A DNA stretch of 64,000 nt from Lunularia cruciata (lineage: Eukaryota; Streptophyta; Marchantiopsida; Lunulariales; Lunulariaceae): contig OX419756.1 in NCBI GenBank assembly GCA_948567375.1, forward strand, positions 62,510,333 through 62,574,332. Direction: 5' to 3'. The notes beneath the pieces were generated by a model. That model was not told the DNA's origin. It searched no databases and worked only from the letters and a program-made list of their open reading frames with translations. The translations under genes were made by a program, and so were the position numbers. Below, in pieces: positions 27,602-51,631 of this stretch. The number at the start of each line of letters is the position of its first letter. Position 1 is the first letter of the stretch.

Positions 27602-28027
27602 TGTTAAAGACCATGACCAAGGAGAGAAATAAGAGAATGGAAGTTCACATTGGGACACTTGAATGAGTGAAAACTCCCAATGCCTAGCATGAGCTTTGGC
27701 TCTTGTTTTTATAAGGATCATACAAGGCTCTTGAAAAGCATCTCAGGAAGCTTATCTGAGCCACTTTCTTGGAGGGCAAGTCAAGTAAATTGTGAAGCTT
27801 CTCAAGAAGCTTCCTTCTAAAAGTCACTTACTTGGCATGTAAGCTAAGCTAGTTGGAACCTTCTAGAAGTTTCCTTCTAGAAGCTACTTACTTGAGTTGC
27901 AAGCTAAGGTAGTCAAGAAGCTTCCCAACAAGCTTCCTAGATACTTTTGGAATATTCCAGGCTAATTTATCTTATTTGCTACTTCATTAGCCCTACTAAC
28001 TTTATTGCTAAACTCCATATTGTTACA
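27602..28027 (-). repeat. Family B 5' LTR
   Basis: 426 bp, the partner of 19,422-19,847. It is followed on the plus strand by the TSD TTTTG and then family M integrase. By eye the two LTRs differ at about one base in ten, which points to an old insertion. Confidence 0.9.
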
Positions 28028-28905: not shown

Positions 28906-29039
28906 CAGACAAGCAACTAACAATGGGGCTCGATAGCACCTGGCCTCTTGATCTTTTGCCCACCATAAGGTATACCATATACTTGGAGCAGATTGCTATC
29001 TAGTGTTAGAGGGGCCTAACCGCCAACTAAGGGAATGAT

Positions 29040-31737: not shown

Positions 31738-34700
31738 AACTATGGCTACTTGGATTGAGCAATTGGAACAAAGATTGGCTAGTATGGCCATTGCTCAAAT
31801 GAGATCAGATTTGGGTGTTGAGGCTTCCACCTCATATATTGGTGATAGGGATGCTTTGGACTTCATGTGCGGAGCAACACGGGTGGATGTATCTGTAGCA
31901 ATAACTAGGATTGTAATTTGTGCTCCAAAGCCTAGAGGAGCATTAGTAGAGTTGGACCCACAAAGAAGAGGAGTTGGGAGACAGGTCAGACATCCCCAGT
32001 CTTTCATGCTCTCTAAGGCATTGCAGATAACATCCATGGCTCTTAGACGTCCCAATGTAGGTGTGGTAGGTGGTGATGGGGTGCATGATAGACTATCTGC
32101 TAGTCAGCCACTTGCTACTACACAAATTGAGTCTAGTACAATGTTGGGGGTGGCTCAACTGATTATGTGTTGCCCTTTTTTTTCAACCAAGGACTTGTTT
32201 ACATTGGGAGTTGACCAATCCTAGTGTTCCAGTTGCCTGCCATGCTTTGTGAGTAGTATGTAGGGATGATATGGTCCCTACTACTAGAGCAAAGGTGATT
32301 GATAGTGGAGTTGACTTGGTTGAGGAGCATAGGATTTGCTCAACAACCAATGGTTTGTGGTATGTAGCAGCGGCCAGATTGGAAGAGTTGCCAACTAGAC
32401 GGACCTTTGAGAGAGCACGGTTCACACCTAGTATTGTCCTATTGGATAACCAAAGGAGGATTTTCTGTTTTGTAGGACTTTTAGGGAAGATCTATACACC
32501 ACAAAGAGTCTTATTAGACTTTGGTGCATAGCTCTTTATGTTGGGTTGTTGGTATAGGGTTATGGAAGACCGATGTGGAGAGGTATCCATTTCAGATCCA
32601 AACATCTATAGGAGGTGGTTTGACATATTACATCACATGTGAAGAGCTAGTTGTTCAAATTCAGCTTGGTCATTTGATTGATAGCTTGGTGGTGAGAGCT
32701 CAAGCTATTGCGACAATAGTTGAGTCATATGATGTGCTAGTCGGTGGAGCAGTGCTATACTCCATGGGTTTCAGTATTGACTATAGGAGGAGACAACTCC
32801 TATGGATCAGGTTAGCAATCTAGTGAGGGACAATTCTGTCGCCTACTAGTATGTTTTAATAGTGGTAGTCTTGGCTCACTATAATTCAAGACCATGGCAT
32901 CATCCATTTCAGCTTTCAATAGTTTTGTTACTTGGCCTGGTGAGTTATTGGAGGGGAATGCCCATGTAGAGGATACTTCAATACTAGAGGAGATCACTTG
33001 GATTGGGAGTATGAGCTGGATTGTTTCATCCACCTTGGATGTTCCTTTGTGGAGTTTAGAGGAGGCATTGCAGCAGCATGCATATCAGTTAGTGCAGTAG
33101 GCTTGGAGTGGAGCCTTTGTACCACTAGCAGACCAATGTCAGGATGAGCCTCTAGAGTCAATTACCTTGACACCTTTGGATACCACACTGATTGCTTGGC
33201 AGTATCCAATAGAGGGAGTATATCTATTGTAGTTGTTTGGTGGGATTAGCACTAGACTAGATGTGGTTCTACAGGCGGGTATACGAGTATAGAGGTACTT
33301 GTATGTGGAGAGAGATGAGATTGCTAGGCAAGTCTCACTCCATCATGTGGCACACCTGGCCTATTGTTATCTTGAGTTATTACCAATGTTAGCAATTAGG
33401 GGTAACCAGAAGGGCCTACCAATAGAGATTTCCTTATTGGAAGCGGATGATCTGGAGAGGCATGGGCCAATCCATTTGGTGATTTCTAGATGGCCATGTT
33501 AGGGACATATGCATGTTGGCCGTGGTTTGGGTCTTCAAGATCCTCATTTGGGTGTGTTTTGGGAGAGGTTACGGATACTTTGATATCTCCAAGTTTATCA
33601 GTCCGTTTTTCTAGCTTAAATGTTGGAGAACTTCTCTTTGATGGATGATTCTTGCACCTGGGTGGTGGTGTGTACACATCAGGTCCATTCTTGGATGTGA
33701 CTTTTTGTTTTGTTAAATAAAGCTAGAGTGGGATCACGGGCTCATCATCTTTGTCTTTGGTGGACTAACCTCTTACCCAAAGAGGTTCTACTGCGTGCAT
33801 ATGATGGGATTGAACGACTAGACCACATCATTATTGATGACATCTTGGATGTTGTGCGTCAATCTCAAATAGTGGTAGTGGTTGATAGATCACCTATGGC
33901 AATGATGAACCTAGTTGGATAGCCTAGAGGTGCTTTTACCACACTTATGAGTTTCCCAAGCTCTCATGCTTCTAAAGAGGGAGGTCTTGGACTAGTTTGG
34001 GACTCACAATTACAACAGTTGGTGGAGTCTAATGCCAATGAGAGAGAGCAAGCAATGGATTTTCACACAAGTATTAGCACTAATCTAGTAGTGCCCAAGG
34101 TATCCAAGCATTAGGTGTTAGGTCAAGCTATGGAACTAAATTGTTTGACCTAGATTGTGAGCCTTGGCTTGGTAGAGTAGCGTAGGATGTGCTTGATATA
34201 CATCACCACTTGGACACTTGTTAGCCTTGTGCCTATTGAGGCAATCTAGGCACATGCTGGGGGCGATGGACCAAGTAGACATAGGACACAAGCAGTAGCT
34301 ACTAGGGAGAATGGTCTACTTGGAGTCCACTTAGGTGAGCGTGGGCTACTTGGATTACACCCTTGGTCTATTGGGATGCTATTAGAGGATGTGTGGAGCT
34401 TGCAGCCATAGTGGAGGGAGATCTTCACACAAAGGTTGGGACTTCTAGTGGTTGGGAGCATGACACTTTTGCTTCCAAGGGTCCAGTGTAGCAACTAGTT
34501 AGTAAGTCTTCCACTCCTACAATAGTTATAGAGGATACTTGGGAGCCAGATCTTGGACCCAAGCTTACAAGAGAATAAAGATAAAGAGTTTGGAGGTTCT
34601 TGAGGAGCTACATGAGTTGTTTTGCCTTTAGTATAAAGGAATTGGGTACTCTAAAAGGACATGGTATTTGGATTCAGCTTACTACCAATACACCAATTTT

Positions 34701-34980: not shown

Positions 34981-36974
34981 TACTGGTGCTCCCCAAGAAG
35001 AGGTACTATGTCATATGAAATCCTTCTCCAACAACTCTGTAAGTGTTGTTCACAACTCCTCCAACTCCTTTGGTGAGAGCCAATAGATTGGTCTACTCAT
35101 TGGAGTACTCCCTGGCAATAACTCTATCTTGAAGGGCATACCTCAATTGGAGGGTAATCCCTTTGGCAAATCATCTAGAAACACATCTGCAAACTCTTGA
35201 ACTATCCAATCAACCATTGCTTGATGAGGCTCTTGGCCCTCCTTAGATTGTTCTTGTGCAATCTGCTTGATCCACACCACAAATACAGACTTATCTTCCT
35301 TTAAAGCTTGCTCTATGGCTGCTTTACTAACAAAATTTGCTTCTAGGGACTCATCTCTCTTCCAAGCTTGCTCCATGGTTGCCTTCTTTGCAAACTTCCC
35401 ATTTTGGGACTCATCTCCCTTCCAGATTCACTCTATGGCTGACTTCTTGACAAATTTCTCATCTTGGGACTGACTATCTTTAGGTGTCTTACTCAAAGGT
35501 TCCAAACAACCTAATCAGAAATTCTTACCTTGGTGTTGTACTTGAATTTGTCATCGGGTCCAATCAAATTGAACATTGTGACGTTCAAGCCAAGGTAAAC
35601 CCAAAATGATATCATAATGTAGAGGTGCCACTACAAACCTCATACACTCCAAATAATCCTTCCCTATCTTGAAGGTAACAAGATGTGAGGTGCGGAAAAC
35701 AGAACCCTTTCTACCATCCGCCATCATCAAACTTCTACCAAACATTGGTTTGATAGGAATACCCAATTCCTTTGCTACTTGCATAGACATGCAATTCTAT
35801 GAACTTCCAGAATCAACCAAAATCCTACAACCCCAATTAGATATCATACCTTGCAAGTGAAGCAAACTTACATAAGTCAAGCCTTCAATACCATTGGAAC
35901 AAATCAAGCTCCTAGTAGGTGGGCCAAAATCTCCTACTAGGATTCCTTGTTTCCTTGATCATTTTGTTCCATAATCTCTATTTGGGCAACTTGTTTTGGT
36001 TGCCCATTCCTAAGAGGGCATTCAGTAATGCGATGTCCAATTTGGCAAAAATATAAACAATCTCTATTTTGTTGCAATCTTTCTCTATCCGCTATACCAA
36101 GTAGTCTCTATTTGATAGCATCAATCTCCATTGGTTTTGGTTCTTCCACTTGTGCATAGTGTACTGGTAGGCCTTGTGTAGATCAAGGGCAAGACCAAGT
36201 TGTTGCAACCAAGGAATTAAAGCGCTTAGCCAATTGCATGACCTTTTCTACATTTTGTGGTTCATGCATGGTCACCTCCAATTTGGTTTGGGACTTCAAT
36301 CCCTACACAAATTGATCCAAAACTTCACCTTCTTGTATATCTGAAATATGCATGATGATGTTCTGAAATTGTGTGATTTAGCTCTTTATTGAGCCAACTT
36401 GCTTCAACTCCGCCAATTTATCTTGTGTGGCACGGGTGGCATTTATGGTTTGAAAGCGATCCAATATTGCATCCTTGAACTCTACCCATGTCAAAATTGG
36501 TACAACAATCTGTCTTTCAACTTACTCCACTCAAAATTGCCACCAAAGTTTTGCCTCACCATCTAGTTGGCTAGAGGCCAAGAGAATCTATTTCCGTTCA
36601 TTTTGAAGATTGGTGGCTTCAAAGTAACATTTGTAGTCAAACACAAAATTCTCCTTGTGCCCGGAAGATTCTTGCCTTGAAACACCTTGGGTTTTGGAAA
36701 TTGAATGCAATCTTCTCCATCCCAAATTGGTGCTCTCTCTATTTGTTCTTGTCGTTGCTGATCTTGTTCATCCAGCAATTAAGTCAGGTGCTCAATTTGT
36801 TGCTGCATTGCAAGGATGAGGTCCGTTATTGCCGCCATAGCTATTACTCTATCCCACTACTCCCACTTTATCTAATTGATTAACATATAGATGCAACACA
36901 TCCACCGTTCCCCATAAGTTACAACCAGAGGTATCAAGGGTCCTCAGAGATGGTGATCATATGTAGAAAATCTT
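34981..36974 (-). pseudogene. Family B gag, protease and RT start (antisense)
   Basis: Right to left on the minus strand: gag start MLDEQDQQRQEQIERAPIW (36,563-36,778); gag body in broken frames; PKPMEIDAI near 36,130; a zinc knuckle CQIGHRITEC near 36,030; protease at 35,551-35,790 with LGIPIKPMFGRSL and YDIILGLPWLERH; linker with VQEFADVFLDDLPKGLP (35,143-35,376); then RT start with MSRPIYWLSPKELEEL near 35,060. The catalytic Asp part of the protease is near 35,800-35,870. It is cut at the left by M4 and at the right by M1. Confidence 0.85.
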
Positions 36975-37427
36975 CGTCACGCCATTTGTAGTTCCGCGTC
37001 TAGATGCTCGGACACTGGAGTTCCAGTGATAGTAGTTAGAGTTATTTCAGTAGTATCTCAGAGACTACTTTCCGACGGTCAGATTTGGTGTTCGGGGTAC
37101 TGACTTCACGGTAGGGCCCACCGTCACTTTGCACCATTTGCACCGTCGAGTGTGCCGTCAGCGGGACCGTTAGGGTTTCAGGGCTAGCTCGAGTCCAGGG
37201 GTATAGTTTCAAAGTGAGCTCCAGAGAGCTCACTTCTCTGATGTTGAGCCTTCGAGTTCCTAGCTATGGTGGACAGAGGCAGGCAAGCGTCACCTAGATT
37301 CTCTATGCTTGAGTGGGTGTGGCTTGACTGTAATCAGTGCCCAGTTGTTGGCAGTTTATAGAGTGACAGATCAAGTACTGATTTGAGTTGAGTTGAGTGG
37401 AGAATGTTAAGCAATCTGATTACATCA
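36975..37427 (+). repeat. M1 left terminal block A1
   Basis: 453 bp, from CGTCACGCCATTTG to CTGATTACATCA. It matches A2 of M3 (57,125-57,578) and A2 of M2 (29,147-29,605). It is not followed by block B, unlike A2; the leader GAGAAGTGAAGTCAGG comes next. The left edge directly adjoins the ATCTT duplication, so this is a true element end. Confidence 0.85.
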
Positions 37428-38640
37428 GAGAAGTGAAGTCAGGGGGAAATTGGGTGCAGGAACGTTGAGTGTTGGTGGTATCTCCAAGCTCGGTGGATCG
37501 TGGTAGCTCGATTCAAGTTCTGTGTTTCCCTAGTGTGTAGAAGCTCGTTCAGTTGATGCAGATTTGGCAGTTAGGCGGACGGTGTGCGGAAGCGCTGGCC
37601 AAATTTTGAGCAAAGAAGGAGCAATTTTTGAGCATTGTTGTGATTTTGAGCTCAGGAGGTGAAGGCAGGACCAATCTGCTGCGAGTTGGGCTCAGAAAGT
37701 GAAATTGAAGGTGGAGTTGGGAAGCTCTTCTCATGAAATTGTGATTTGGAAAAACCCGTTTTGTCAATTTGGCTCGAGTGGAAAGTTAGCGGGGGATTTG
37801 GCGGACATCCATCTTTAGGGTTTACGTCAGATTTTGGGCCAGAATTGGAGGAGTTTCGCTGTTTGGCCAGATTTGGAGAAGTTTTGCTAGTTTGGAGGAG
37901 TTTCATAGATTTGGAGAAGTTTCGCCAATTTTGGAGGAGGTTCAAAGTGGCAACAAGAAAGGCCTCATTTGGGCGTTTAGAGGCTTCAAGGCATAGGGCG
38001 AGAAGCTACGAAGGCCTAGAAGGGCCAGAAGGGCCAGCAAGCCAGGTTGCTGGCGTGAGACTAGCTAGTTTAAAGTAGATCTTGGTCATTGGTTGGCAAA
38101 ATCTGCCTTTCCTGCTAGATTGTGCGCAACAGGGTTTGACCCCTAGATCTCTTGTTCCTAGACTGGTGCCCTAGCCAACTAGTCCACCCTCACTTGTTGT
38201 CCTAGTGACTGCGCCACTGTTATCTATACACATGTAGCTTTGGCTAGGAGAGGCAGTTTGATCCCATTCTTGGTGATCTTGGTAGCTTAGGACTTAAAGA
38301 CGAACTACTCTTATGTCAAATGCCAAATGGTGGCAGAGTCAATCCCGTGTTGTGTTATGAGATGGAGGGTTTTTGTTTAGATTTCTTGTGATTGGATCCC
38401 CTCCATTCTCTGCTTCCTATTTGTGCACCACTTGTGTGAGGTGCCCTGACTTTTGACGTTGGTGCTCTGGTGTGCTCTCGGTGGTGAGGCTGGAGTGATG
38501 ACCAATCAGACTACCTTTGTTTCTCTTCGGTGAGGCAGGAAGTGATGACCTACAGACCGTGAGAGTGTGTGTTATGATGGCAACTTACAGGTTGCCCTTC
38601 CCCTAGTGTAGTTATCTCGGTTAGAGTTACATTAGTGGGT
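37428..38640 (+). other. M1 leader, about 1.2 kb, no clear ORF
   Basis: Lies between A1 and gag. No canonical tRNA-Met primer-binding site adjoins A1. The nearest TGGTATCTCC (37,474) and TGGTGGCAGAGTC (38,325) are weak. A repeated phrase TTTGGAGAAGTTT/TTTGGAGGAG occurs at 37,860-37,940. A tRNA-like segment lies at 38,128-38,205. A TAG at 38,647 closes the frame just before gag. Confidence 0.5.
38128..38205 (-). other. tRNA-like segment (A and B box) in M1 leader
   Basis: On the minus strand TGGACTAGTTGG (38,175-38,186) fits the A-box consensus and GGGTCAAACCCT (38,131-38,142) fits the B box, about 33 bases apart. It could be a tRNA relic, a SINE head, or part of an unusual primer site. A functional tRNA is unlikely because no clean acceptor stem is evident. 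Confidence 0.4.
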
Positions 38641-38649
38641 GGTGTCTAG

Positions 38650-39900
38650 TTGGTGTTGGCACGTGGTGGTGTTGGCACTTGGTGGGGCACTTGCGGTTGT
38701 GACTTGCGGTTGCAGTTGGTAGTTCGGGTTTGCTGTTGCAGTTACGTGGTCACAACGGAGTTCTTTGGAGATTCCAAAGGAGTTAGCCCTACAGTACGCA
38801 GTGGGTTTACTCGGAGTGGTGCTCGGTATCAGCCTGTATCTCAGGTCCCAGTGAGGGAGGAGATTGACTCTGAGTTGGAGTTCGACACAGGAGTTGATTC
38901 AGTTGAGAGTGCACTTGGTGTGTCCGCACCGTTGTTGTGGGACATGGATGAGATTTATGGGGCCTCCAAAGGCCCTAGGCATTACTCTGGTACAGTGGGT
39001 ACCATTGAGTTGGATGACTTCATCCAGGAGTTGGATAGTTGGTGTGATCTGCAACAGATGCGGAACCCGACTTTGTTCACACCCTTCATGGCATGGATGG
39101 GGTTATTTCAGCATCTGGAGGGTCCGCCGATGGATGATTACCATGAGTTTAGGAGAGCTCATTTGGAGGAGATTGAGTTATGGAGACAGTATTGGTCTCC
39201 ACACTATGTCTCCATCACTTCAGGCTCGGTGGCCAGGAGTAGATCAGTTGTACCCACGAGTTCTAGCTCGAGTAGTGTTGGTGGAGCTAGTGGAGGTGCA
39301 CTAGCTGGAGATAGTGCTACTACGAGTGGAGGTACCGCTGCAGGAGGTGGTGTGGTACCACATAGGAAGAAATTACATAGGAAGAAATCCACCATGGGGT
39401 TAAACCCCCATGGTGGATTTCTTCCTATGTTTGAGGCAAAACTACCAGGGAGTGCGGACTGACAAGCTGAGGAGCTTGTAGGAGCTCCAGCGGAAGGTTG
39501 GAAAGAGCCTACGCGAGGCATACACTCGCATGAGGCGGCTGATCAGTTTCACTCAGGGAGTTACTGAGGCCCAGGCAGTCCAGTTTTGGTATGGGATACT
39601 GGACAGGGAGTTGTGACGTAGAGTTCGTGATGCTACGTTGTTGCAGGCTACTTTGCCCACTTTGGCAGTAGTCTTTGGTTTGGCTGAGCGTATTGAGCTC
39701 AACATGGTGGAGGAGAGAGTGGTGACAGCTAGATTTGGTAGAGACATCTCATCCACGGTTGTGACTTCTTTCGAGTGCAGCAGATTGCACCACGCCCAGT
39801 TGGTTTTTGAGGACAAGGTGGACAGCCCAGATCCTATGGAGCGAGTGGAGGGCCTAGTGGAGTTAGACCCTTACCCTCATTTTCGGGTCAGCAGCAGCCA
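38650..39900 (+). pseudogene. M1 gag (capsid)
   Basis: The first frame (38,650-39,462, no ATG at its start; first Met in MDEIYGASKG at 38,943) has FIQELDSWCDLQQM, FMAWMGLFQHLEG and HLEEIELWRQYW, a retrotransposon capsid fold pattern. A Ser/Gly/Ala-rich linker follows. After the hairpin at 39,375-39,430 the reading moves to another frame: LREAYTRMRRLISFTQGV, AVQFWYGILDREL and LAERIELNMVEERVVTARF, the typical gag C-terminal part. Stops at 39,476 (TAG) and 39,613 (TGA) interrupt it. It would form the particle. Confidence 0.8.
39375..39430. repeat. Perfect 25-bp inverted repeat inside gag
   Basis: Arms 39,375-39,399 and 39,406-39,430 are exact reverse complements, with a 6-base loop TTAAAC. The first 14 bases of the arm (CATAGGAAGAAATT/C) also occur just upstream at 39,361. 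The hairpin coincides with the place where the gag frame changes, so it is probably a secondary insertion or templated duplication. Confidence 0.95.
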
Positions 39901-40868
39901 GTGAGTGGTGGTGTTGCTTGTTGGACTTGTGGTGGACCTCACCATAGGAGAGAGTATACTCAGGGCAGCAGACCTGATACCTCTGGTGCATCACAGCCAG
40001 CACAGAGGCAGCGTGAGCACTGCCACAGATTTGGTCACACTAGTGACCGGTGTTTCGACCTACACCCGGAGTTACGGAGTGGTAGGGCTGCTATGGCAAG
40101 TAGTAGAGGAGCTCCAGTTCATGGAGGACGAGGTGGTAGAGGTGGTGGTAGAGAATCTACACCTAGTAGGGGTGCAGTACCTACCCTTACTTCTGACACA
40201 GCTATGGCTACTCGGATTGAGCAGTTGGAGCAGAGATTGGCTAGTATGGCTGTTGCTAAGAGGAGATCAGATTTGGGTGCTGAGGCTTCCACCTCATATG
40301 CTGGTGATAGAGATGCTTTGGACTTCATGTGCGGAGCAGCACAGGTGGATGCATCTGCAGTAGTGACTAGGAGTGCAGTACGTGCTCCAGAGCCTAGAGG
40401 AGCATCAGTGGAGTTGGACCCACAGAGAGGAGAGGTTGGGAGACAGGTCAGACTTCCCCAGTCTTTCACCCTATCTGAGGCATTACAGACGACATCCATG
40501 GTTCCTAGACGTCCTAGTGAAGGTGTGGTAGGTGGTGATGGAGTACCTGATGGAGTACCTGCTGGTCAGCCACTTGCTACTACACAAACTGAGTCTAGCA
40601 TGATGTTGGGGGCGGCTCAGCTGATTATGCGGCATCCTTTATTTTCAGCCAGTGACATGTTTACATTGGGAGTTGACCCAGCTCCAATATTCCGATTGGC
40701 TGCCACGTTGTGTGAGAGTAGGGATGGTGCTGTTCCTACTACTAGAGCAGAAGTGGTTGTTAGTGGATCTGACTTGGTTGAGGAGCATGGGATCCGTTCA
40801 GCGACCAGTGGTTTGTGGCAGGCAGCAGCGGCTAGACAGGAGGAGTTGCCAACTAGACCGGCCTTTGA
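39901..40868 (+). pseudogene. M1 zinc knuckles and unusual linker
   Basis: Two knuckle-like motifs: CWTCGGPHHRREY (39,922-39,960, last Cys read as Tyr) and HCHRFGHTSDRCF (40,019-40,056, first Cys lost). An RGG-like stretch (VHGGRGGRGGGRES) follows. Then comes about 200 residues conserved in M4: MATRIEQLEQRLASMAVA (a short coiled coil), GDRDALDFMCGA, RGASVELDPQRG, VRLPQSFTLSEALQTTSM and AQLIMRHPLFS. I do not recognise this linker. It is open from 39,901 to 40,986. Confidence 0.75.
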
Positions 40869-41370
40869 GAGAGCGCGGTTTACACCTGGTGTTTTCCTAT
40901 TGGATAACCAGAGGGGGATTTTTTGTTTGGTGGGACCTTCAAGGAAGGTCTATACACCACAGAGAGTCTTGTTAGACTCTGGTGTGTAGCCCCTTATGTT
41001 GGGGAAGGCTACAGTTGTCGGTCTGGAGTTACGGAAGACCGATGTGGAGAGGTGTCCATTTCAGATCCAGACATCTCTTGGTGGTGGTTCGACACAGTAC
41101 ATCACACGTGGAGAGCTTGTTGTCCAGGTTCAGCCAGGTCATCCGACTGATAGCTCGGTGGTGAGAGCTCAAGCTATTGCGACGATAGCTGAGTCATATG
41201 ATGTGCTAGTTGGGGGAGCAGTGTTATACCCTATGGGTTTCAGCATTGACTATTGGGAGGAGACAGCCTCTTATAGACCTGGTTGGCAGTCTGGTGAGGG
41301 ACGGGTATATCGCCTACCAGTACGCTTTAGTAGTGGCAGTCTTGGCTCACTAGAGTCTGGGCCATGGTAG
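40869..41370 (+). pseudogene. M1 retropepsin-like protease
   Basis: Active site VLLDSGV (Asp at 40,975-40,977), immediately followed by TAG (40,987-40,989), then PLMLGKATVVGLELR. The hydrophobic-hydrophobic-Gly motif is YDVLVGGAVLYPMGFSIDYW (about 41,190-41,250). The C-terminus runs VYRLPVRFSSGSLGSL and ends at TAG 41,368-41,370. M4 has a stop at the same codon. The fold is typical of a gypsy protease; the LGG in place of LGM is unusual. Confidence 0.8.
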
Positions 41371-42768
41371 CATCAGTTTTGGCTTTCAGTGGTGCAGTTA
41401 CTTGGCCTGGTGACTTGTTGGAAAGGAATGCCCATGCAGAGGATACTCCAGTACCAGAGGAGATCACTTGACTTTGGAGTACGAGTGGGATTGTTCCATC
41501 CACCTTGGATGTTTCATTGTGGAGTTCAGAGGAGGCATTGCAGCAGCATGCAGATCAGTTGGTGCAGCAGGCTTGGAGTGGAGCCTTCCTACCATCAGGG
41601 GATGAGTGTGAGGATGAGCCTCCAGAGGCGATTGCCTTGACACCTCTAGATACCACACTTATTGCTTGGCAGTACCCAGTAGAGGGGATATGCCTATTGG
41701 AGTTGTTTGGTGGGATCAGCACCGGACTAGCTGCGGTGTTACAGGCGCGTATCCGAGTACAGAGGTACTTGTATGTAGAGAGAGATGAGACTGCTAGGCG
41801 AGTCTCTCTACATCATGTGGCACACTTGGCCTATCGGTATCCGGAGTTATTACCGATGTCAGCAGTCAGAGGTTACCAGAAGGCCTTACCAGGAGACATT
41901 TCCTTACTGGGGGCGCATGACCTAGAGAGACATGGGCCTGTTCACTTGGTGATTTCTGGATGGCCATGTCAGGGACATACACGTGCGGGCCGCGGTTTGG
42001 GTCTTCAGGATCCTCGTTCTGGTGTGTTTTGGGAGATGGTATTGATATTACGACATCTCCAGGTTCATCAGTCTGTTTCTCCAGCTTACCTTTTGAAGAA
42101 CGTTCCTTTGTTGGGTGATTCTCGCACTAGAGTGGTGGCAAGTACACATCAGGTCCATTCTTGGATGGGGCCTGTTGTTAGATGCAGCTAGAGTGGGATC
42201 ACGGGCTCATCGTCTTCGCCTTTGGTGGACAAACCTTTTACCCAGAGAGGTTCTACAGTGTAGTTATGATGGGATTCAGCGACTAGACCACATTCTTGTT
42301 GATGATATCTTGGATGCTGGGCGTCAGTCTCAGACAATGGTAGTGGCTGATAGGTCACCTATGGCAGTGGTGAACCTAGTTGGAGAGCCTAGAGCTGCAT
42401 TTCCTGCACTCATGAGTTTCCCAGGCTCTCATGCTTTTCGAGAGGGAGGACCTGGACTTGTTTGGGACTCACAGTTACAGCAGTTGGTGGAGCCCAATGT
42501 TGATGAGAGAGAGCGGGCGATGGGTTTTCACACCGGTATTACTGCTATTCCAATAGTGTCAGAGGCATCCAAGCGTCAGGTGTTAGGTCAGGCTATGGAC
42601 CTGAACTGTTTGACCTGGATTGTGAGCCTTGGTTTGGCCGAGCAGCGTAGGATGCGCTTGATAGGCATCACCACTCGCACACTTGTGAGCCCTGTGCCTA
42701 TCAAGACGATTCAAGCACATGCTGGGGGCGATGGACCGAGTGGACATGGTATTCTTGGGACACATTAG
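41364..42768 (+). pseudogene. M1 DNA (cytosine-5) methyltransferase domain
   Basis: The ATG at 41,364 (context GCCATGG) overlaps the protease stop and is in the -1 frame; M4 has ACCATGG at the same place. Motif order is canonical. Motif I, LLELFGGISTG (41,694-41,726), binds S-adenosylmethionine. Acidic motif II is YLYVERDETARRV. Motif IV, LVISGWPCQGH, has the nucleophile Cys at 41,967-41,969. The motif VI position reads LLKNVP, with Lys (42,096-42,098) in place of the catalytic Glu that M4 keeps. Motif VIII is GSRAHRLRLWWTNL (about 42,196). Motif IX/X is ERERAMGFHTG, then VLGQAMDLN (42,579). Motif VIII recalls DNMT3/DRM enzymes; PCQ recalls DNMT1/CMT. It is broken by TGA at 41,469 and a 5-base frameshift near 42,175. 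It would methylate DNA in the nucleus or in the element's particle. Confidence 0.9.
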
Positions 42769-43012
42769 TAGCTACTAGGGAGAGTGGTCTACTTGGAGTC
42801 CATCCAGGTGAGCGTGGGCTACTTGGATTACACACTTGGTCCACATGGGATGCAGCTAGAGGACGTGTGGAGCTTGCAGCCAGAGTGGAGGGAGTTTTTC
42901 ACACAGAGGTTGGGACCTCTAGTGGTCGGGAGCATGACACTATTGCTCCCAAGGGCCCTGTGTAGTAGCCAGTCAATACGTCTTCCACTCCTACTACAAT
43001 TACAAGGGATAC
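42769..43012 (+). other. Linker with internal deletion of the reverse transcriptase
   Basis: Colinear with M4 to GATACTTGGGAG (43,019), where M4 goes on to the RT. M1 instead continues GATGAGCAGGAGAGAGC, which is RNase H in M3 (49,536). TGGGGAGATGAG in M3 and ACTTGGGAGATGAG in M1 share TGGGAGA, so the RT was lost by a deletion at short homology. The remaining linker reads WSLQPEWREFFTQRLGPLV. Confidence 0.8.
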
Positions 43013-43830
43013 TTGGGAGATGAGCAGGAGAGAGCTTTTGTAAAGCTCAAGGAGAGGTTGACATCTGCTCCTATTTTGAGGAGACCAATCAGGGGACGAC
43101 CATTTCAGGTTCACACTGATTGGATTATGTTGGGGCTTGGAGCGGTGCTCACCCAACATGATGATGAGGAGAAGGAGTTTGTGGTGGCCTATGCTAGTCG
43201 CTCCAACAATTCAGCGGAGGCGAAGTATAGTTCATATGAGGGAGAGTGCTTGGCAGCAGTTTGGGCAGTAGCACATTTCCGATGTTACCTATTTGGTAAC
43301 CCCTTCACTCTCATCATTGATCATCAGCCGCTGAAGTGGTTGATGGAGTCCGACAAGCTTTTAGGGAAGCTTGCACGATGGGCTCTGATTTTACAGGAGT
43401 ATGATTTCATGGTTGTTCACAGACCTGGAGTGGTGAACCGTGATGTAGATGGGTTGAGTAGAAACCCATGTCCCAGCCAGCAGGATCAGACCGGAGCACG
43501 TTGGCATGGTGAGACAGATGAGGAGATGGTGCCAGGTTGGCATGCATCAGCCTTTCTGTGTATATTTGCAGAGACTTTGGTGGTATCTCTCTTAGCGCAT
43601 ACAATAGGAGTTATTGAGGTCACAGATCCAGAGAGTGAAGATATTGGTACAATTCAACGAGACATTTATGATGAAGTCTTAGTGATGGACTATCTTCGCA
43701 TTGGTGTTGTGGGAGGCACAGTTGGGGCCAAGGAGAGAGACCATGTTCTTCAGCAAGCCAGACGGTTCAGATTGGAGGGTAGACACCTTTTGCGTGTATG
43801 GGAGGATGGTAGAGTGCGAGTGGTACCACT
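43013..43830 (+). pseudogene. M1 RNase H and post-RNase H linker
   Basis: Open frame 43,013-43,840. It begins in the RT connection (RAFVKLKERLTSAPIL), followed by RNase H: FQVHTDWIMLGLGAVLTQ, EFVVAYASRSNNSAEAKYSS, YEGECLAAVWAVAHFRCYLF, IIDHQPLKWLMES and HRPGVVNRDVDGLSRNP. It degrades the RNA of RNA/DNA hybrids. The linker after it (WHASAFLCIFAETLVVSL to RVWEDGRVRVVPLPS) leads to the integrase. A TAG at 43,838 replaces CAG, which is still present in M2 at 19,014. Confidence 0.92.
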
Positions 43831-44560
43831 TCCATCATAGAGACCACAGTTGGTCCGTCATGCTCATGAGGAGCTAGGACATTTTGGAGTAAAGCGTACA
43901 TATAGCTTACTCCAGAGTCATTATTGGTGGCGCGGTATGTAGACCAAGGTACAGTAGTTTGTTGCCAGATGTGTGGTTTGTGACCGAGTTAGAGCATCAT
44001 TCAATGCTCCTACGCCACAGTTACACCCATTATCTATCATGGGATTGGGTTACCGTTGGAGTTTGGACTTTGCCGGACCTTTATCGCTGACTGTGAGACA
44101 TCATCGGTATGTTTTGGTGATGGTGGAGCACTTCTCCAAGTGGATTGAGTTGGTGGCACTTCCTGACAAGTCTAGTGAAGGGACAACTTACTCGTTCCTG
44201 GATTGAGTTCTTAGTCATTTTGGTGCACCAGCTGAGGTTTTGACTGATCAGGGTACAGAGTTCTTGGGAGAGTTTCAGGTCTTATGTGACAAGGCTTTGA
44301 TTGATCATCGTACTACATCCCGAGATCACCCTGAGGCAGATGGCTTAGCAGAGAGAGTGGTTCAGACGGTGAAGAGAGGATTGCGAAAGTATGGTTTGCA
44401 GAGAGGCCACTTGGGAGATTGGGATCTTCAGTTACCTTGGTTGGCCATGGGCTATCGGTTCAGCCGGCAAGCCTCCTTAGCATCCTTCTCTCCATAATTT
44501 CTACTCTATGGACGAGATCCAGATTTACCTGCAGCCATTCGTCGAGATGCTACTATAGTT
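43831..44560 (+). pseudogene. M1 DDE integrase
   Basis: Zinc domain HAHEELGHFGVKRTYSLL and CVVCDRV (43,971-43,991). The core has catalytic Asp in WSLDFAGPL (44,066-44,068), Asp in VLTDQGTEFLGEF (44,246-44,248) and Glu in EADGLAERVVQTVKRG (44,351-44,353). All three catalytic residues are kept. Stops at 43,938 (TAG), 43,953 (TAG) and 44,204 (TGA) break the frame, as does a small frameshift near 44,495 (FSPYFL). A DDE integrase agrees with the 5-bp TSD. Confidence 0.93.
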
Positions 44561-45110
44561 TTGGACTTGGAGGACCCCGATGTATGGATGAGCGCATGTT
44601 CTCAGCGGGCAGAGATCTTTTGGAGAGTGATGCCGATGGCTTTTGAGAACTTGGTGATTGCTCAGCATTGAGATACTTTACGCTATGCTACCATTCGAGG
44701 AGGAGGTTATACACCCTCAATCCGTTGATTTCATCTAGGCGACTATGTATATCTACAGCAGACAGCACCGACGACACTTGATGTTTCTACAGGCCGCACT
44801 ATCTTGAGAGTGCGTGAGGTATTGCCATCTGGAGTCCTTGTGTTAGAAGGACGTGATGGTGTTGTTTGGAAGGATCATGTGCGCAATTGTGCGCCATGCC
44901 ACCTTCCAAACATTGATGGTACTATGGACCCAAGCTTGGCACTTGTACGTGCAGGCTTGAGGTGTATGTTATGTGGCTCTCCTGGTGGAGCTTCTACTAT
45001 GTTAGTGTGTGATAGCTGTTCGAGAGGATGGCATATGGCATGTATGACTCCTCCCCTCACGGTGGTTCCTCAGGGATAGTGGTTATGTCCTAGATGTACT
45101 TGACCTGTAG
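44561..45110 (+). pseudogene. M1 integrase C-terminal region with PHD finger
   Basis: After the core: LDLEDPDVWMSACSQRA, then GDYVYLQQTAPTTLDVSTG and LPSGVLVLEGRDGVVWKDHV, in the place of the usual GPY/F module. A CxxCH element NCAPCHLPNIDG follows. Then comes a complete C4HC3 PHD finger: CMLC (44,963-44,974), CDSC (45,008-45,019), HMAC in RGWHMAC (about 45,031-45,042), WLCPRC (to 45,098). The Gln before Trp is TAG at 45,077-45,079. PHD fingers read histone tails, often unmodified or trimethylated H3K4. Here one takes the place of a chromodomain. Only C-to-T stops (for example 44,676, 44,727) break the frame. Confidence 0.92.
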
Positions 45111-45257
45111 CTAGTTCATTCTTTATATGGTATAGATTGCAGACAAGCGACTAACGATGGGGCTCCATAGCACCTGGCCTCCTGATCTTTGCCCATTAGA
45201 GGGTATACCATATACTTAGAGTAGATGGCTATCTGGAGTTAGAGGGACCTAACCGCT

Positions 45258-45376
45258 AGCTAGGGGGGCGATTGTGGCACTTTAGAGTCTATGTGTGACT
45301 TATGTGTGAGTTGTGCTTCTATAGTGTATGATGTTGACAGCAATGTATGTTGTGTAGCAATGTATATACGCATGAC
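45258..45376 (+). repeat. M1 G-rich tract and right terminal block B
   Basis: GCTAGGGGGGCGAT (45,259-45,272) looks like a polypurine tract and directly precedes TGTGGCACTTTAGAG (from 45,273). Block B runs about 104 bp and ends CGCATGAC at 45,376, next to the ATCTT duplication. Unlike M2 and M3, no A2-B2 follows, as expected if the two B copies recombined. Confidence 0.8.
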
Positions 45377-46277
45377 ATCTTGCTCAAAGTACAAGGTGAT
45401 GAATTGTGTGAAATGATGTTTAGGTAATATCTGGACATGACCCAATGGTTTGGCAGAAGTGGATTTGGTTGTCCATAAATTCCATCCATCCCATGTGTGC
45501 CAATGTAAAAGACCACAACCGAGAAGAGAAATAGGAGAATGGAAACTCACATTGGGACACTTGAATGAGGGAAAACTCCAAATGTCTAGCATGACTTTGG
45601 CTTTGGTATTTATAGGTAGCATACAAGGCCCTTGAGTAGCTTCTAAAGAAGCTTCCTTGAGCCACTTTCCTAGAGTGCAAGTCAAGTTAACTTGGAAGCT
45701 TCTCAAGAGCTTTTTTCTAGAAGCCGCTGTTGTCGGGAAAATAAACTACACATAGTATTGGTGCCATTTGGTGTGAATTTTTCATGTTAGAGAACTCAAG
45801 GGTTTATGCAATGGTGAAATTGGTAGTTGTTTTTTGTTCTTGTAGGCTCAAGGATTTTCTCTTGTGTTAAGGAAGGAAGGATTTTTCTTCAAGAAAGGAG
45901 AGGACCGATAGGAAGTTAAATTTTGGAGAAGAAGTATCGAGGGTTTTGTTGCTGGACAGAAAAGAGTTTGAAAGAGAGTTGTGAGAAAAAGGGAAGTTGC
46001 TAGGAAAAAAAAGAGTGTGAAAAAGAGTTGTGAGAAAAAGGAAAGTTCTAGACAGAAGAGAGGATTTGGGATCTGGATGAAGGGCTTTTTGGGACAAGAA
46101 GAGAGAGATACCGAGAAATAGGTTGGCTTGGAAAAGAGGTTGAATTCTAGAAGGGACAAGGGTGTTTTTGGAGGATCAATGAGAAAGAGAGGATTGAGAA
46201 GAAGAGCAAGGTTCAAGAAGGAAGGGTTTAGGGTTTAGGCTTTTTAGGAGAAAGAGGGCTAGAGGGATTTTTCAAGA

Positions 46278-47650
46278 TGCCTGAGGGCTGTGACAGGGCC
46301 AGAGGAGATGAAATTTAGGAGTTGAGTGAGAGTCTTGCAGTGCCAAAGGGGAATTTTTGAAATGCCTTAGGGTTGTGACAGAAGAAGAAAGTTTTTGGGA
46401 GTTGAGTGAGAGTCATGCAGGGCCAGAGAGGAATGTTCAAAATGCCTTAGGGCTGTGACAGGGGAACAAAGTTTTCAAGAGTTGATGAGAATCTTGCAGG
46501 GCTAGAGATGAATTTTCAAAATGCCTTAGGGCTATGACAGGAGAAGAAAGTTTTTGGGAGTTGAGTGAGAGACTTGCAGGGCCAGAGAGGAATTTTTGAA
46601 ATGCCTTAGGGCTGTGACAGGAGGAGAAAGTTTTCAAGAGTTGAGTGAGAGTCTTGTAGGGCCAGAGGGGAATTTTTGAAATGCCTTAGGGCTGTGACAG
46701 GAGAAGAAAGTTTTCAGGAGTTGAGTGAAAGTCATGCAGGGCCAGAGAGGAATTTTTGAAATGCCTTAGGGCTGTGACAGGAGAAGAAAGTTTTCAGGAG
46801 TTGAGTGAGAATCTTGCAAGGCCAGAGATGAATTTTCCAAGGGCTTAAGGGCTGTGACAGGGCAAGAGGAGATGAAATTTGGGAGTTGAGTGAGAGTCTT
46901 GCAGGGCCAGAGGGGAATTTTTGAAATGCCTTAGGGTTGTGATAGGAGAAGAAAGTTTTTGAGAGTTGAGTGAGAGTCATGCAGGGCCAAAGAGGAATTT
47001 TTGAAATGCCTTAGGGCTGTGACAAGAGAAGAAAGTTTTCAGGAGTTGAGTGAGAATCTTGCAGTGCCAGAGTTGAATTTTTGAAATGCCTTAGGGCTGT
47101 GACAAGAGAAGAAAGTTTTCAGGAGTTGAGTGAGAATCTCAAGGCCTGAGATGAATTTTCAAAATGCCTTAGGGTTGTAACAAGAGAAGAAAGTTTTTGG
47201 GAGTTGAGTGAGAGTCTTGCAAGGCCAGAGATGAATTTTCAAAATGCCTTAGGGCTGTGATAGGAGAAGAAAGTTTTCAAGAGTTGAGTGAGAATCTTGC
47301 AGGGCCAGGGAGGAATTTTGAAATGCCTTAGGGCTGTGATAGGAAAGGAAAAATGGAAATTTGAGTGAGAGTGATGCAGGCCAGGGAGGAATTTTGAAAT
47401 GCCTTAGGGCTGTGATAGGAAGGGGAAGTTGGAAAGTTGAGTGGGAGTGCTGCAGGCCAGGAAAATATTTTGAAATGCCTTAGGGCTGTGACAAGGACAG
47501 GAGATGATTTTGAAAGTTGAGTGAGAGTCCTGAGGGCTGAGGAATTTTTGACATGCCTTAGGGCTGTGACAGGGCCAAGAGAAGAAATTCAAAGGTTGAG
47601 TGAGAGTGTTGCAGGGCCGGAGGAAATTTTTGAGATGCCTTAGGGCTGTG
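46278..47650. repeat. ~80-bp tandem array, about 18 units
   Basis: The unit begins ATGCCTTAGGGCTGTGACAG, followed by GAGAAGAAAGTTTT, GAGTTGAGTGAGAGTCTTGC and AGGGCCAGAGAGGAATTTT. Starts of successive units are about 80 bp apart (46,360; 46,441; 46,521; 46,600; 46,680; and so on). Units diverge by 5-20%. Open frames on the minus strand (HSPKAFQKFLSGPA repeats) are by-products of the period and not evidence of a protein. Confidence 0.93.
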
Positions 47651-48072
47651 ATAGGAGGAGGGGAAATTTTGAGAGTGGAGGCCTATGGCTGTTGCAAGAG
47701 CACGATATTTTTGAGTTTTGCTTGGTCATTGATTTGAAACAGTGGAGAAGAGAAGGAGTTGAAATCTGCAGGAAGGACTGAACTAGGCGGGAGCAAGAGA
47801 AGAAATTTGAGAGTTTGACTTTGCCTTGCACAAGATAGGAGAGATTTTGAAGGTTGGCTTCCTTGAGCAGTAGCCAGTGACATGGGTAGATTTGTGTTAG
47901 GGTTGCTCTAGCTGGACAAGGAATGATTTTGAATATGGAAGGATGTTTATTGTGAGAATGTTGATAGGAGAGCAAATTTTGAATGAATAATGTTTGTTGT
48001 GAAGAGGTGGACATGAAATGAATTTTGAATGTAGAGGATGTGATGTTGAAAATGTAATAGTGAAGAATTCTC

Positions 48073-49001: not shown

Positions 49002-49500
49002 GTTACAATATTATGAGTTGCCAATCAAGAACAAGGATAAGTCCAAGACAACATTTTGGGCTATTGATCCTCACAGCAAGGATGTGTTATATCAATGGAG
49101 GCTCTTACTATTTGGGTTAAAGAACACTCTTGCTAAGTTCTAGAGGGTCATGGACAGGATCCTAGCTAGATTGGATTTTGCTTGGTGCTATTTTGATGAC
49201 ATTTTGGTCTATAGCACTATTGTGGAGGAGCATGAGAGACAATTGTTGGAGGTGTTTGGGAGGTTGAGATATCGTGGACTCAAATTACATCTTAGGAAGT
49301 GTAGGTTCTTCATGAGTAGGTTGAGTTTTTCGGTCACACTATTTACCCTGGAGGACTTGGTGTTCAGCAAACCAAGGTTGAGGCTTTTGCACGTATTCCT
49401 TGACCTACAAAAGTGAGCAATATGTGAGCATTCCTTGGCTTGGCAAACTTCTATTGCTGCTATGTTAGATGATTTAGTGCCATTGCCAAGGCCTTGACAA
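49002..49500 (+). pseudogene. M3 reverse transcriptase (3' part)
   Basis: RT palm: SKDVLYQWRLLLFGLKNTLA, catalytic box Y-F-D-D at 49,189-49,200 (FDDILVYSTI), EEHERQLLEVFGRL, GLKLHLRKCRFF. It continues with LGLANFYCCYVRRF-type connection sequence (about 49,435). One TAG (49,141) and small frameshifts are present. It confirms the RT type missing from M1. Confidence 0.88.
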
Positions 49501-51631
49501 AGCTGACCAAGCTTACAAAAGAGTGGTGCTGGGGAGATGAGCAAGAGAGAGCTTTTGTAGAGCTCAAGGAGAGGTTGACATCTGCTCCTATTTTGAGGAG
49601 ACCAATAAGAGGACAATCATTTAAGGTTCACACTAATGAAGTATGTTGGGGCTTGTAGCAATGCTCACCTTGCATGATGATGAGGGGAAGGAGTTTTTGG
49701 TGGCCTATGCTAGTCCCTCAAACAATTCAGCAAAGATGAAGTATAGTTCATATGAGGGAGAGTGCTTGGTAGCAATTTGGGCAATAGCACATTTCCAATG
49801 TCACCTATTTGGTAACCCTTTTACTCTCATTACTGATCATCAGCCACTAAAGTGGTTGATGGAGTCCAACAAGCTTCCAATGAAGCTTGGACAATAGGCT
49901 TTGATTTTACGAGAGTATGATTTCATGATTATTCATGGATCTAGAGTGGTGAACGTGATACAAATGGGTTGAGTAAAAACCCATATCCCAACCAGCAGTA
50001 TTAGTCCAAAGCATGTTGGCATGGTGAGCCAAATGAGGAGATGGTGCCAAGTTGGCATGCAATTTTTCTCTATATATTTTTTGAGACTTTGGTGGTATCT
50101 CTCTTAGCGCATATAGGAGGAGTTATTGAGGTCACAAATCTAGAAAGTTAAGATATTGGTACAATTCAGCAAGACATTCATAATGATGTCTTAGTGATCA
50201 ACTATCTTTGCATTGGTGTTGTGGATGGCATAGTTGGGGCCAAGGAAAGAAACCATGTCCTTTAGCAAGCCATGCAATTTAGATTGGAGTGCAGACACCT
50301 TTTGTGTGTATGAGAGGATGGTAGAGAGTAGTACCACTTCCATCTCAAAGTCCACAATTGGTCCGTCATGCTCATGAGGAGCTAGGACATTTTGGAGTAA
50401 AGCGTGCATATATCTTACTCCATAGTCATTATTGATGGAACGGTATGCAAATCAATGTACAATAGTTTATTGCCAGATGTGTGTAATACCAATAGCTAGA
50501 CACATTATCTAGAGATGAATTTTTTTGGGAACATCTAGAAGTATGTTATACATGATGGACTAAGTAGATCATACAGAGGTATCACTTAAAGAGTACTTCT
50601 ACTAGTAGGCCAAAAACCGAAACATGCTTGAAGACTTTAAAATCAATAGCTAAACATATGATCTAGAGGTGAAACTTGGGGTGGTGACATCTAGAAGGAT
50701 TTTACACATGATGGAGAATGTAGAACAGATATAGGTATTACCAAAAGAGCACTTCTACTAATAGTGCAGAAACCAAAAATAGCCTAAACTTTAAAGCCAT
50801 TTTTGAGGGCCTAAACGGATGAATTAGGCCTCAAAAATGAAAAATTTTCCCTACAAAGAGAAAGAGGCTTGCCTTTCTCCCCTCCATAATTTGACTTTTT
50901 GAGATATTTCCAACAGTACCTTACCCATACAATTCTGAGCTTCTAACAAGAAGATTCCCTAAAGGATCCCTAAAGATTCCCTTTGGTCAAACCCATTTGG
51001 CCAACTAGTTAGGACAAGGACTGACATGTCACCCATCCAAACAACTAATCCAAGGATGGAGCTCACTGAAATGTCACTAATCCATGTATCTGATCCAAGG
51101 GTGGAGCTTCCTTTTAGGGGATCCTCTTTGTTATATAATAAAGAGAAGGTGCTCCTTTGGGGCATCAAAGGATTGAGTAGGAAATTGGTGTTTTCTCTCT
51201 TGAAGAGTTCTCTTGTTCTCTAAGTATTATAATGTGTAGTTTGTGACCAAGTTGGAGCATCATTTAATGCTCATATGCCATAGCTACACCCATTATCTAT
51301 CACGGGATTGGGTTACCGTTGGACTTTGGACTTTGTTGGACCTTTACCATTGACTATGAGACATCATCAATATGTTGTGGTGTGGTGGAGCACTTCTCCA
51401 AGTGGATTGAGTTGGTGGCACTTCTTGACAAGTCTAGTGAAGTGACAACTTACTTGTTCCTGGATCGGGTTCTCAGTCATTTTGCTGCACCAACTGAGGT
51501 TTTGATTGATTAGGGTACATAGCTCATGGGAGAGTTTCAGGTCTTGTGTGACAAAGCTTTGATTGATCATTGTACTACCTCTCAAGATCACCATGAGGCA
51601 GATGGCTTAGCAAAAAGAGTCATTCAGACGG
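49501..51631 (+). pseudogene. M3 RNase H and integrase, split by a solo LTR
   Basis: RNase H: ERAFVELKERLTSAPIL, VAYASPSNNSAKMKYSSYEG, ITDHQPLKWLMES (to about 49,900). The integrase zinc domain (HAHEELGHFGVKRAY near 50,370) runs to CQMC-like GCCAGATGTG at 50,481, where the solo LTR inserts. It resumes at 51,232 with VCDQVGASFNA-like sequence, LDFVGPLPL (Asp near 51,325) and LIDQGT with TAG for Gln (51,514). Element X cuts it at CATTCAGACGG (51,631). Confidence 0.85.
50482..51231 (+). mobile_element. Solo LTR of family A, TSD ATGTG
   Basis: 750 bp, TGTAATACCAATAG to AAGTATTATA, matching 20,825-21,575 throughout. ATGTG flanks both sides (50,477-50,481 and 51,232-51,236). Removing it rejoins the integrase CxxC region of M3. 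The terminal CA has become TA. Confidence 0.9.

Follow-up and report, generated by a model that had tools for sequence, protein, structure and literature searches.

A Ty3/Gypsy retrotransposon family with a cytosine-5 methyltransferase in its polyprotein, from a probable bryophyte genome

Known methyltransferase-bearing elements and the present one

The closest described system to the element considered here is KnitGypsy-Dnmt3, from the charophyte Klebsormidium nitens. As presented in the main text of de Mendoza 2018 (PMC5890265), that element combines a Gypsy domain set with DIRS-like repeats (Fig. 4c legend) and with an unrearranged, Dnmt3-related methyltransferase (MTase), one which lies within the polyprotein and which is under purifying selection. 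Its copies are described there as silent and as CHG/CHH-methylated in this streptophyte, and the question of why a methylation-silenced parasite should carry its own methyltransferase is left open in the same text. Similar too are SymbioDIRS-Dnmt3 and SymbioLINE-Dnmt of Symbiodinium, i.e., retrotransposon MTases found in hundreds of copies and under purifying selection, with SymbioDIRS repeats ordered as A-coding-B-A-B (PMC5890265, main text). These Symbiodinium elements are described as using a tyrosine recombinase or instead a LINE endonuclease (same source), whereas the family treated here has a DDE integrase. An earlier note on this DNA had named this precedent, which, judging from that main text, is both real and very close. 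A literature search on bryophyte Gypsy or DNMT3 retrotransposons and on KnitGypsy, with subscription journals and preprints outside its scope, found PMC5890265 alone, so a land-plant report may exist; such elements are not mentioned in the part of PMC9033089 consulted.

By ‘window’ is meant here the whole 64,000-nucleotide stretch of DNA that was analysed, C2:62,510,333-62,574,332 of a genome whose 74 contigs total 565.8 Mb, eight of them, at 60-85 Mb each, making up 558 of 566 Mb. Within the window are M1 and M4, which are dead, decayed copies of a large Ty3/Gypsy family. The KnitGypsy-Dnmt3 plan, that is, Gypsy domains plus DIRS-like repeats plus an unrearranged MTase, is found here as well, as compared by description (PMC5890265, main text) rather than by sequence. 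This kind of element therefore is already known, since 2018 from a charophyte and now, probably, from a land plant. There are differences, however. In KnitGypsy-Dnmt3 the MTase is found in the Pol ORF, with the word ‘protease’ absent from the main text of PMC5890265, whereas here the MTase is found in the Gag-protease frame, ahead of a UAG stop; here, too, the host is probably a bryophyte and there are more than 4,000 MTase sites. PHD finger, 4-bp duplications, self-primer, and readthrough layout all go unmentioned for KnitGypsy-Dnmt3 in that main text. New relative to what is described there, that is, are readthrough layout, PHD finger, copy number, and probable bryophyte host.

The earlier note had spoken of a ‘seed-plant-like’ genome, a description which is not supported, given a DNMT3-like exon (L127), 41% identical to human DNMT3A over 112 aa by BLAST and preceded by cysteine-rich residues; the host, again, is probably a bryophyte. 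Angiosperms are not known to have DNMT3. Additional exons read as DRM (L128 and L131, with a motif order that by eye is rearranged) and as CMT (L129), these DRM and CMT labels being our own while the DNMT3 label rests on the BLAST match. Bryophyte sequences are placed with Dnmt3 in the main text of PMC5890265, and the portion of PMC9985172 consulted gives for Lunularia cruciata a 580-Mb assembly along with growth through Ty3/Gypsy bursts. A liverwort of this sort would suit the present host, although another non-flowering plant may do so as well.

Anatomy and abundance of the family

M1 (Table 1) is inserted in a repeat, an uninterrupted relative of which is seen at 27,150-27,850. In sister copies the first block begins TGTCACG..., with its first base altered in M1. 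M1 and the copy L027 share one insertion site, with the same flank and the same TCTT duplication, and the surrounding region therefore has been duplicated. The earlier note had located the MTase between protease and RNase H/integrase. The MTase does follow the protease, but its true neighbour on the other side is reverse transcriptase (RT), which is missing from M1 because of a 975-bp deletion: A near-identical duplicate, L002, situated on the same contig some 0.45 Mb upstream, retains that stretch. An RT-less MTase subfamily was considered, M1 and M4 both having seemed to lack RT, and rejected, as M4 retains the start of RT, L002 retains RT, and all ten copies fetched at length possess it. 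The same note's statement that M4 carries the same domain at the colinear place was borne out (31,740-34,545 versus 40,202-43,019), with 12 stops within the M4 MTase (33,008-34,330) and with TAG CAA CTA at 34,489, downstream of which the start of RT is still present.

Table 1. Positions, within the window, of M1 features and of the older copy M4.
Feature	Position	Strand	Basis or remark
M4, older copy colinear with 40,202-43,019	31740..34545	+	82.5% identity to M1
4-bp target site duplication TCTT, left	36971..36974 (right copy 45378-45381)	.	sequence comparison of copies
5' terminal repeat block B, 448 nt, no block A next	36975..37422	+	TGTCACG... in sister copies
TCACTTCTCTGATG within B, candidate RNA 5' end	37230..37243	+	28 nt after TATAG box start; putative role
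CATCAGAGAAGTGA adjoining B, candidate self-complementary primer binding site	37423..37436	+	9/10 long copies; putative role
Gag region with zinc-knuckle-like part, frames broken in M1	38650..40989	+	by eye and position
Protease region, from LLDSGAQPLMLGKA in open copies	40990..41370	+	read by eye
C5 cytosine methyltransferase domain of M1	41,676-42,660	+	motifs I-X in canonical order; frameshift near 42,180
TAG stop between MTase and RT; M1 context TAG TAG CCA	42963..42965	+	conserved among copies
Junction of 975-bp deletion that removed RT; GGGAG short repeat at break	43015..43019	+	L001 vs L002, window vs L027
RNase H region	43020..43840	+	PF17917 2.5e-34
Integrase: H2C2, DDE core, C-terminal part; broken in M1	43838..44960	+	PF17921, PF00665 in L014, L010
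PHD finger, polyprotein end	44963..45106	+	PF00628 7.2e-8; L014 9.7e-11
Polypurine-tract-like GGGGGGCGA	45263..45271	+	sequence; putative role
3' terminal repeat block A, alone in M1	45272..45377	+	comparison of 10 fetched copies

The ten long copies, all taken from the 40 best and all on the plus strand, display one gene order: B, Gag, zinc-finger part, protease, MTase, UAG, RT, RNase H, integrase, PHD, and then A, usually followed by B-A (RT is shortened in L015). The Pfam matches found include RVT_1 (3e-32) and RNase H (1.4e-36) in L009, along with H2C2 (4.9e-19), rve (4.4e-13), and PHD (9.7e-11) in L014, while a Pfam search of the Gag and protease regions of M1 and sister copies gave no match. 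The protease-RT-RNaseH-integrase order of Ty3/Gypsy elements, with H2C2 and a DDE core, is present, the protease having been read by eye and the class having been assigned from this order rather than from an RT tree.

Used as a DNA query, the MTase matched at 40 of 40 scored places (from 6,238 first-look candidates), over 1,294-1,297 nt and at 91-100% identity. Genome-wide, a 30-base motif IV word with up to 3 mismatches identifies 4,102 MTase sites and an RT word identifies 4,859 places, with reversed controls yielding 0 in both cases. Given a full copy of about 9.95 kb (L009/L010), the family would make up at most about 41 Mb, or some 7% of the genome, were all copies complete, which is not the case. 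Out of 2,161 candidates in a genome scan with the methyltransferase profile PF00145, 123 were scored, and most of these cover profile positions 48-120, just as the element does. Members lacking an MTase were sought at six of the 4,859 RT sites, all on contig C1 and chosen for having no exact MTase 30-mer listed nearby, and none was found: All six have MTase upstream, at 90-95% identity, albeit in one (L137) as a 203-nt piece only. The MTase, that is, is present wherever the family was inspected, which upholds the earlier note's view of it as a family feature (40/40 scored places, 10/10 long copies colinear, 6/6 RT sites). Lack of a significant profile match, or copies without the domain at that position, would have counted against that view, and this check did not refute it.

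The methyltransferase: identity, constraint, and source

By its motifs and matches, M1 encodes a cytosine-5 methyltransferase of the DNMT3/phage type. The earlier note had assigned 41,364-42,768 to this enzyme; an MTase is indeed there, but the domain proper occupies only about 41,676-42,660. It is spread over two frames, 41,472-42,191 and 42,097-42,768, with a frameshift between. The first of these frames scores 24.5 bits against PF00145 (Pfam profile search; cut-off 22), with two sister copies reaching 30.9 and 29.9 bits, and it matches TIGR00675 at 1.9e-6 but with 27.7 bits, below the curated cut-off of 100.65; phage MTase families are matched as well (phrog_116, 1.4e-12). The decayed M4 does not by itself reach the PF00145 cut-off, such that one of the two members of the M1/M4 pair passes, and the profile check as proposed for both thus succeeded for M1 and failed for M4. 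The motif VIII-X half of M1, taken alone, has no Pfam or NCBIfam match and, in the PDB, chance matches only, its one weak match being to a phage family of unknown function (0.0013).

A combined profile of M1 and M4 ranks DNMT3B and DNMT3A first among PDB sequences (2.1e-5). For the domain of L005, a sister copy that is intact, the match to DNMT3A has E=1.5e-11 (PDB sequence search), and scores with phage MTases reach 89 bits (3e-17). In the DNMT3A alignment motif VIII falls within the main block while IX/X form a weak second block. The match of the L005 domain to DRM2 is restricted to motifs I-IV (0.005), and DNMT1 and CMT are absent among the 54 PDB sequences listed for it at E up to 10. Motifs I, IV (PC), VI (ENV), VIII, and IX/X occur in this order in the open copy as aligned with reference enzymes. 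The motif order claimed for M1 by the earlier note thus was correct, but M1's domain is not intact, having the frameshift near 42,180 and, at motif VI, L-K-N-V where open copies have L-E-N-V. DRM enzymes have a motif X block before motif I, which is not seen in the element; its order being canonical, the element's enzyme therefore is not a DRM.

It might be supposed that this MTase-like signal is instead due to chance or to a chimeric assembly, particularly as the M1 Pfam score is barely above cut-off and that of M4 below. The same domain is found at the same place in all copies examined, however, with PF00145 matched, 40 of 40 scored places agreeing, and a sister copy matching DNMT3A at 1.5e-11 and a phage MTase at 3e-17. 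We thus regard a chance motif match as ruled out and see next to no likelihood in either form of this explanation. The presence of a C5-MTase inside a Ty3/Gypsy element, as the earlier note had claimed, accordingly stands, given the profile score, the motif order, and the DNMT3A match.

The domain also appears to have been kept by selection. Across 16 copies, a set without the M1 group of three, M4, and two old copies, variants shared by at least two copies comprise 19 silent, 11 replacement, and 0 stop changes (random expectation 9.0, 18.9, and 2.1) versus 26, 47, and 6 among private variants (expectation 21.5, 49.2, and 8.3), for a Fisher p=0.005, with related copies sharing variants and such counts therefore not being independent events. 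In nine copies the shared variants number 13 silent and 5 replacement in the MTase and 12 silent, 3 replacement, and 2 stops in RT-RNaseH, each at p=0.004-0.005 against private variants. Shared silent and replacement counts are 14 and 9 in Gag, 6 and 4 in protease, 4 and 2 (plus 1 stop) in integrase-PHD, and 2 and 2 in the 198-nt linker following the MTase. Shared MTase variants thus apparently show purifying selection resembling that on RT. Not every branch, however, displays constraint on the MTase: Of the fixed MTase changes that separate the M1 group from the young copies, 5 are silent and 8 replacement, which is 0.73 of the random ratio, and for old versus young copies the ratios to random are 0.55 (M4), 0.70 (L030), and 1.23 (L029). 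These old-copy ratios blend in time spent as dead copies. Of 22 MTase regions, nine, the reference row among them, have an open frame and show no indels when compared with that row.

As to where the MTase came from, the element's first 135 residues score 75.5 bits with the top-scoring bacterial enzyme (L047) and 73.2 with that of phage Henu15, versus 42.4 with host DRM, 40.4 with human DNMT3A, and 35.4 with the host DNMT3 exon. In pairwise ranking among 88 rows, host DRM is 82nd, human DNMT3A 85th, and host DNMT3 88th, though these ranks are affected by reference rows having been collected by similarity to the element and to phage MTases. In a control, bacterial rows also gave the highest scores (97 bits to L110) for the host DNMT3 exon, although that gene is eukaryotic. 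Given that behaviour along with the biased choice of rows, the ranks therefore do not show a prokaryotic source. Among 12 enzymes compared locally, Gp27 of Morganella phage Henu15 is best (87.8 bits, 26% over 284 aa), and such phage or bacterial C5 MTases share with the element motif VIII, RxRxxWTN. They are free-standing, however, and in our scans at most 23-36% identical to it: A contig scan yielded 116 relatives out of 164 candidates, with 80 kept, at 23-36% identity. Four stretches of viral contigs matched the search pattern in one scan, none of them a relative, and plasmid scans yielded weak matches in 22 and 14 records.

A phylogeny of 29 hand-picked rows places the element on motifs I-IV beside phage Henu15 (98/90) and away from the DNMT3/DRM group when the tree is free, while forcing it together with DNMT3/DRM costs 7.4 log units, at a p-AU of 0.233. 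With the full domain and the same number of hand-picked rows the element sits on its own long branch, a DNMT3A clade having a p-AU of 0.373, and in an 88-row tree, from which seven of 80 prokaryote loci without a usable open frame had been dropped, it has no resolved placement. On motifs I-IV, in other words, the element groups with the phage when unconstrained, and a clade with DNMT3 is rejected neither there nor on the full domain. Of the earlier note's word ‘captured’, what stands is that the MTase is inside a Ty3/Gypsy family; a DNMT3-clade source and a phage or bacterial source are both compatible with the trees. DRM as source is made unlikely by motif order. Recent capture of the host DNMT3 is unlikely because the element and the host exon align over just 57 residues, at 33%.

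Expression layout, terminal repeats, and possible role

In one of the ten long copies Gag, protease, and MTase form a single open frame of 1,428 aa that ends at UAG, and at two further genomic places an open frame of equal length surrounds the MTase; the upstream frame is interrupted somewhere in the other nine long copies. RT then resumes in the same frame after the UAG. All 21 distinct copies seen, M1 and M4 included, have this stop, and none has a sense codon there. UAG-CARYYA is a leaky stop context, as known from tobacco mosaic virus, and is found in 18 of the 21, the exceptions being M1, its duplicate L002, and an inverted copy in L010. After the stop these 18 read CAG CCA, CAG TCA, or CAG CTA or else, in the 18%-diverged M4, CAA CTA. 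Retention of stop and context points to the MTase probably being made at Gag level, with RT and integrase made through readthrough. Most ribosomes, that is, would halt at the UAG to give a Gag-protease-MTase precursor, and a minority would read through, thereby adding RT-RNaseH-integrase-PHD. Instead the UAG could be the natural end of a protein, with RT-integrase expressed separately, whether from an internal start or a spliced RNA. What is observed is, after all, solely a same-frame sense continuation. A frame identical on both sides, a stop that never is sense, and retained CARYYA nevertheless weigh against separate expression, which we consider somewhat unlikely.

Split direct repeats are carried by DIRS/Ngaro elements, in the order B-coding-A-B-A. 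Here B stands alone at the left end in all ten long copies and the right end is A-B-A in seven, A-B-A-B-A-B-A in one, and A alone in two, as in M1. Split repeats of DIRS type thus are seen in eight of ten copies, and identical LTRs at both ends in none; the two B blocks of one copy differ at 4-18 of about 448 sites (eight copies). Unlike DIRS/Ngaro elements, the family has a protease region, a DDE integrase, and, in all ten, ends of TGTCAC...GACA with 4-bp target duplications, and Pfam matches among the pieces scanned include no tyrosine recombinase. The repeat arrangement therefore is the DIRS order, with the coding region between B and A-B-A, on a DDE-integrase element. The A-NN-B junction inside the 3' repeat resembles, we infer, the joined ends of a circle. 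This junction word is absent from the 64-kb window at up to 3 mismatches, junctions in the window being older.

Tf1/sushi Gypsy elements are self-primed, and like them the family has, after the repeat, a 14-nt sequence complementary to a stretch downstream of a TATA-like box, 28 nt from where that box starts. Specifically, CATCAGAGAAGTGA, which adjoins B in nine of the ten long copies, is the exact complement of TCACTTCTCTGATG, which lies about 255 nt into B in all ten, the box in question being TATAG. That pairing suggests Tf1-like self-priming, an interpretation drawn from sequence; Tf1/sushi elements differ in that split repeats, MTase, and PHD finger are features of the present family.

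What the MTase might be doing can be put as follows. The protease would free it inside the virus-like particle, where it would outnumber RT, and it would there methylate cytosines of new double-stranded cDNA ahead of integration. A copy might in this manner arrive already bearing the host's silent mark and so escape treatment as foreign DNA, while the PHD finger would read histone tails and direct insertion into chromatin that tolerates the copy. Host CG and CHG methylation would then maintain the mark, with old copies decaying by C-to-T change at CG and CHG. That cDNA self-methylates is a hypothesis found in the main text of de Mendoza 2018 (PMC5890265), to which the present family would add an expression layout able to place the MTase in the particle. 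A role in cDNA methylation is plausible by itself; readthrough layout, MTase in the particle, cDNA methylation before integration, and PHD-guided tolerated insertion, all jointly, make up a tentative proposal, nearly as apt to be right as wrong.

The substrate instead may be RNA or host DNA. Perhaps selection acts on something other than DNA catalysis, the domain being structural, RNA-binding, or RNA-methylating. DNMT2, for example, acts on tRNA (and is so named in PDB entries), and motif IV of the element, SGWPCQGH, is unusual in having Trp where reference enzymes carry Ser or Phe. The K. nitens Gypsy MTase, moreover, produced no methylation in yeast, a result its authors call inconclusive, while both SymbioDIRS-Dnmt3 domains assayed methylate CG de novo in yeast (PMC5890265, main text). 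This explanation has to contend with retention of the motif IV Cys, motif VI E-N-V, motif VIII, and the motif IX/X block in the aligned open copy, as well as with a 30-mer spanning motif IV that is identical in all ten long copies, and we find it distinctly unlikely. Similarly improbable, in our judgment, is the larger scenario in which a DIRS-repeat Gypsy lineage, extending from charophytes to bryophytes, would have obtained its MTase from a phage or bacterium rather than from a host DNMT3, would make it at Gag level via UAG readthrough, would pre-methylate cDNA in the particle, and would integrate a split-repeat, possibly circular cDNA by means of DDE integrase plus PHD reader, thereby coming to be among the most successful parasites of one land-plant genome. 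Within this plant genome the family offers thousands of copies, a complete colinear anatomy, an RT-like selection signal, and a specific expression layout, and cDNA methylation, readthrough, and split-repeat integration therefore are directly testable.

An enzyme acting in trans, upon host chromatin or the genome rather than upon cDNA, might disrupt host silencing or instead limit its own transposition by methylating genomic copies. Self-limitation is raised in the main text of PMC5890265, and both the high copy number and the heavy CG/CHG decay of copies would be in keeping with action in trans. Placement in the Gag-protease frame points rather to the particle, and the CHG decay needs no element enzyme, which leaves this a rather unlikely account as compared with cDNA methylation. 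CHG decay is a typical product of host CMT/MET enzymes. Plant hosts methylate silent elements at CG and CHG, and such host methylation could by itself account for the C>T pattern, which does not demonstrate activity of the element's enzyme. Across nine copies and 5.8 kb, private C>T changes per site per copy stand at 0.0186 for CG, 0.0173 for CHG, and 0.0031 for CHH, with 18 more C-to-T changes, in which it is the reference row that is derived, outside these rates; private T-to-C changes stand at 0.0009 per A/T site. This excess points to probable germline methylation of the copies in both the CG and the CHG context.

Duplication of the M1 region

M1, a decayed Ty3/Gypsy copy that carries a C5-methyltransferase, is accompanied by two duplicates upstream on the same contig (OX419756.1, here C2). 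The nearer of these, found ~0.45 Mb upstream at C2:62,104,391, is near-identical to M1, as seen upon comparison with 39,972-43,293 of the window. The other, ~0.65 Mb upstream at C2:61,902,397, is 98% alike in the same comparison and shares with M1 the same insertion site. M1 and these two duplicates, that is, are products of segmental duplication.

Terminal repeats and a candidate self-priming site

The terminal repeats of this family consist of two blocks, A and B. Split direct repeats, i.e., B at the 5' end and A-B-A at the 3' end, occur in this methyltransferase-Gypsy family together with a DDE integrase and 4-bp target duplications (36,975-45,377 as well as sister copies L009-L028 elsewhere in the genome). 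Among the copies read at this junction, three have GC as the dinucleotide separating the two blocks, and the tandem copy has AC. One sister copy, L015, has in addition a partial B block, located within its 5' leader (L015:3836-3949).

Directly after B in M1, positions 37,423-37,436 are an exact 14-nt complement of 37,230-37,243, the latter lying 28 nt beyond the start of a TATAG box. Such complementarity between post-B sequence and a post-TATAG site might permit self-primed reverse transcription.

Other copies and repeats in the window

Copies M3 and M5 are found in the window along with other repeats (see table). Nested insertions break up M5 at ~50,483-51,232 and ~51,631-56,120, and M3 is interrupted by ~8.6 kb of other sequence.

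Additional family copies and other repeats, by window position
Feature	Position	Description
M3, copy of M1 family	18,337-19,421 and 28,028-29,726	3' end is A-B-A
M5, copy of same or near family as M1	49,018-57,702	spans RT to 3' repeats
Tandem array, units ~80 bp	46,255-47,680	12 overlapping copies
Further tandem arrays	52,775-54,868 and 54,848-55,786	several period lengths
Separate repeat, two copies	8,163-10,353 and 59,138-61,314	~90% alike; open frames ~150-175 aa

PHD finger

Fused onto the integrase end of the M1 Gypsy polyprotein is a PHD finger (44,963-45,106).
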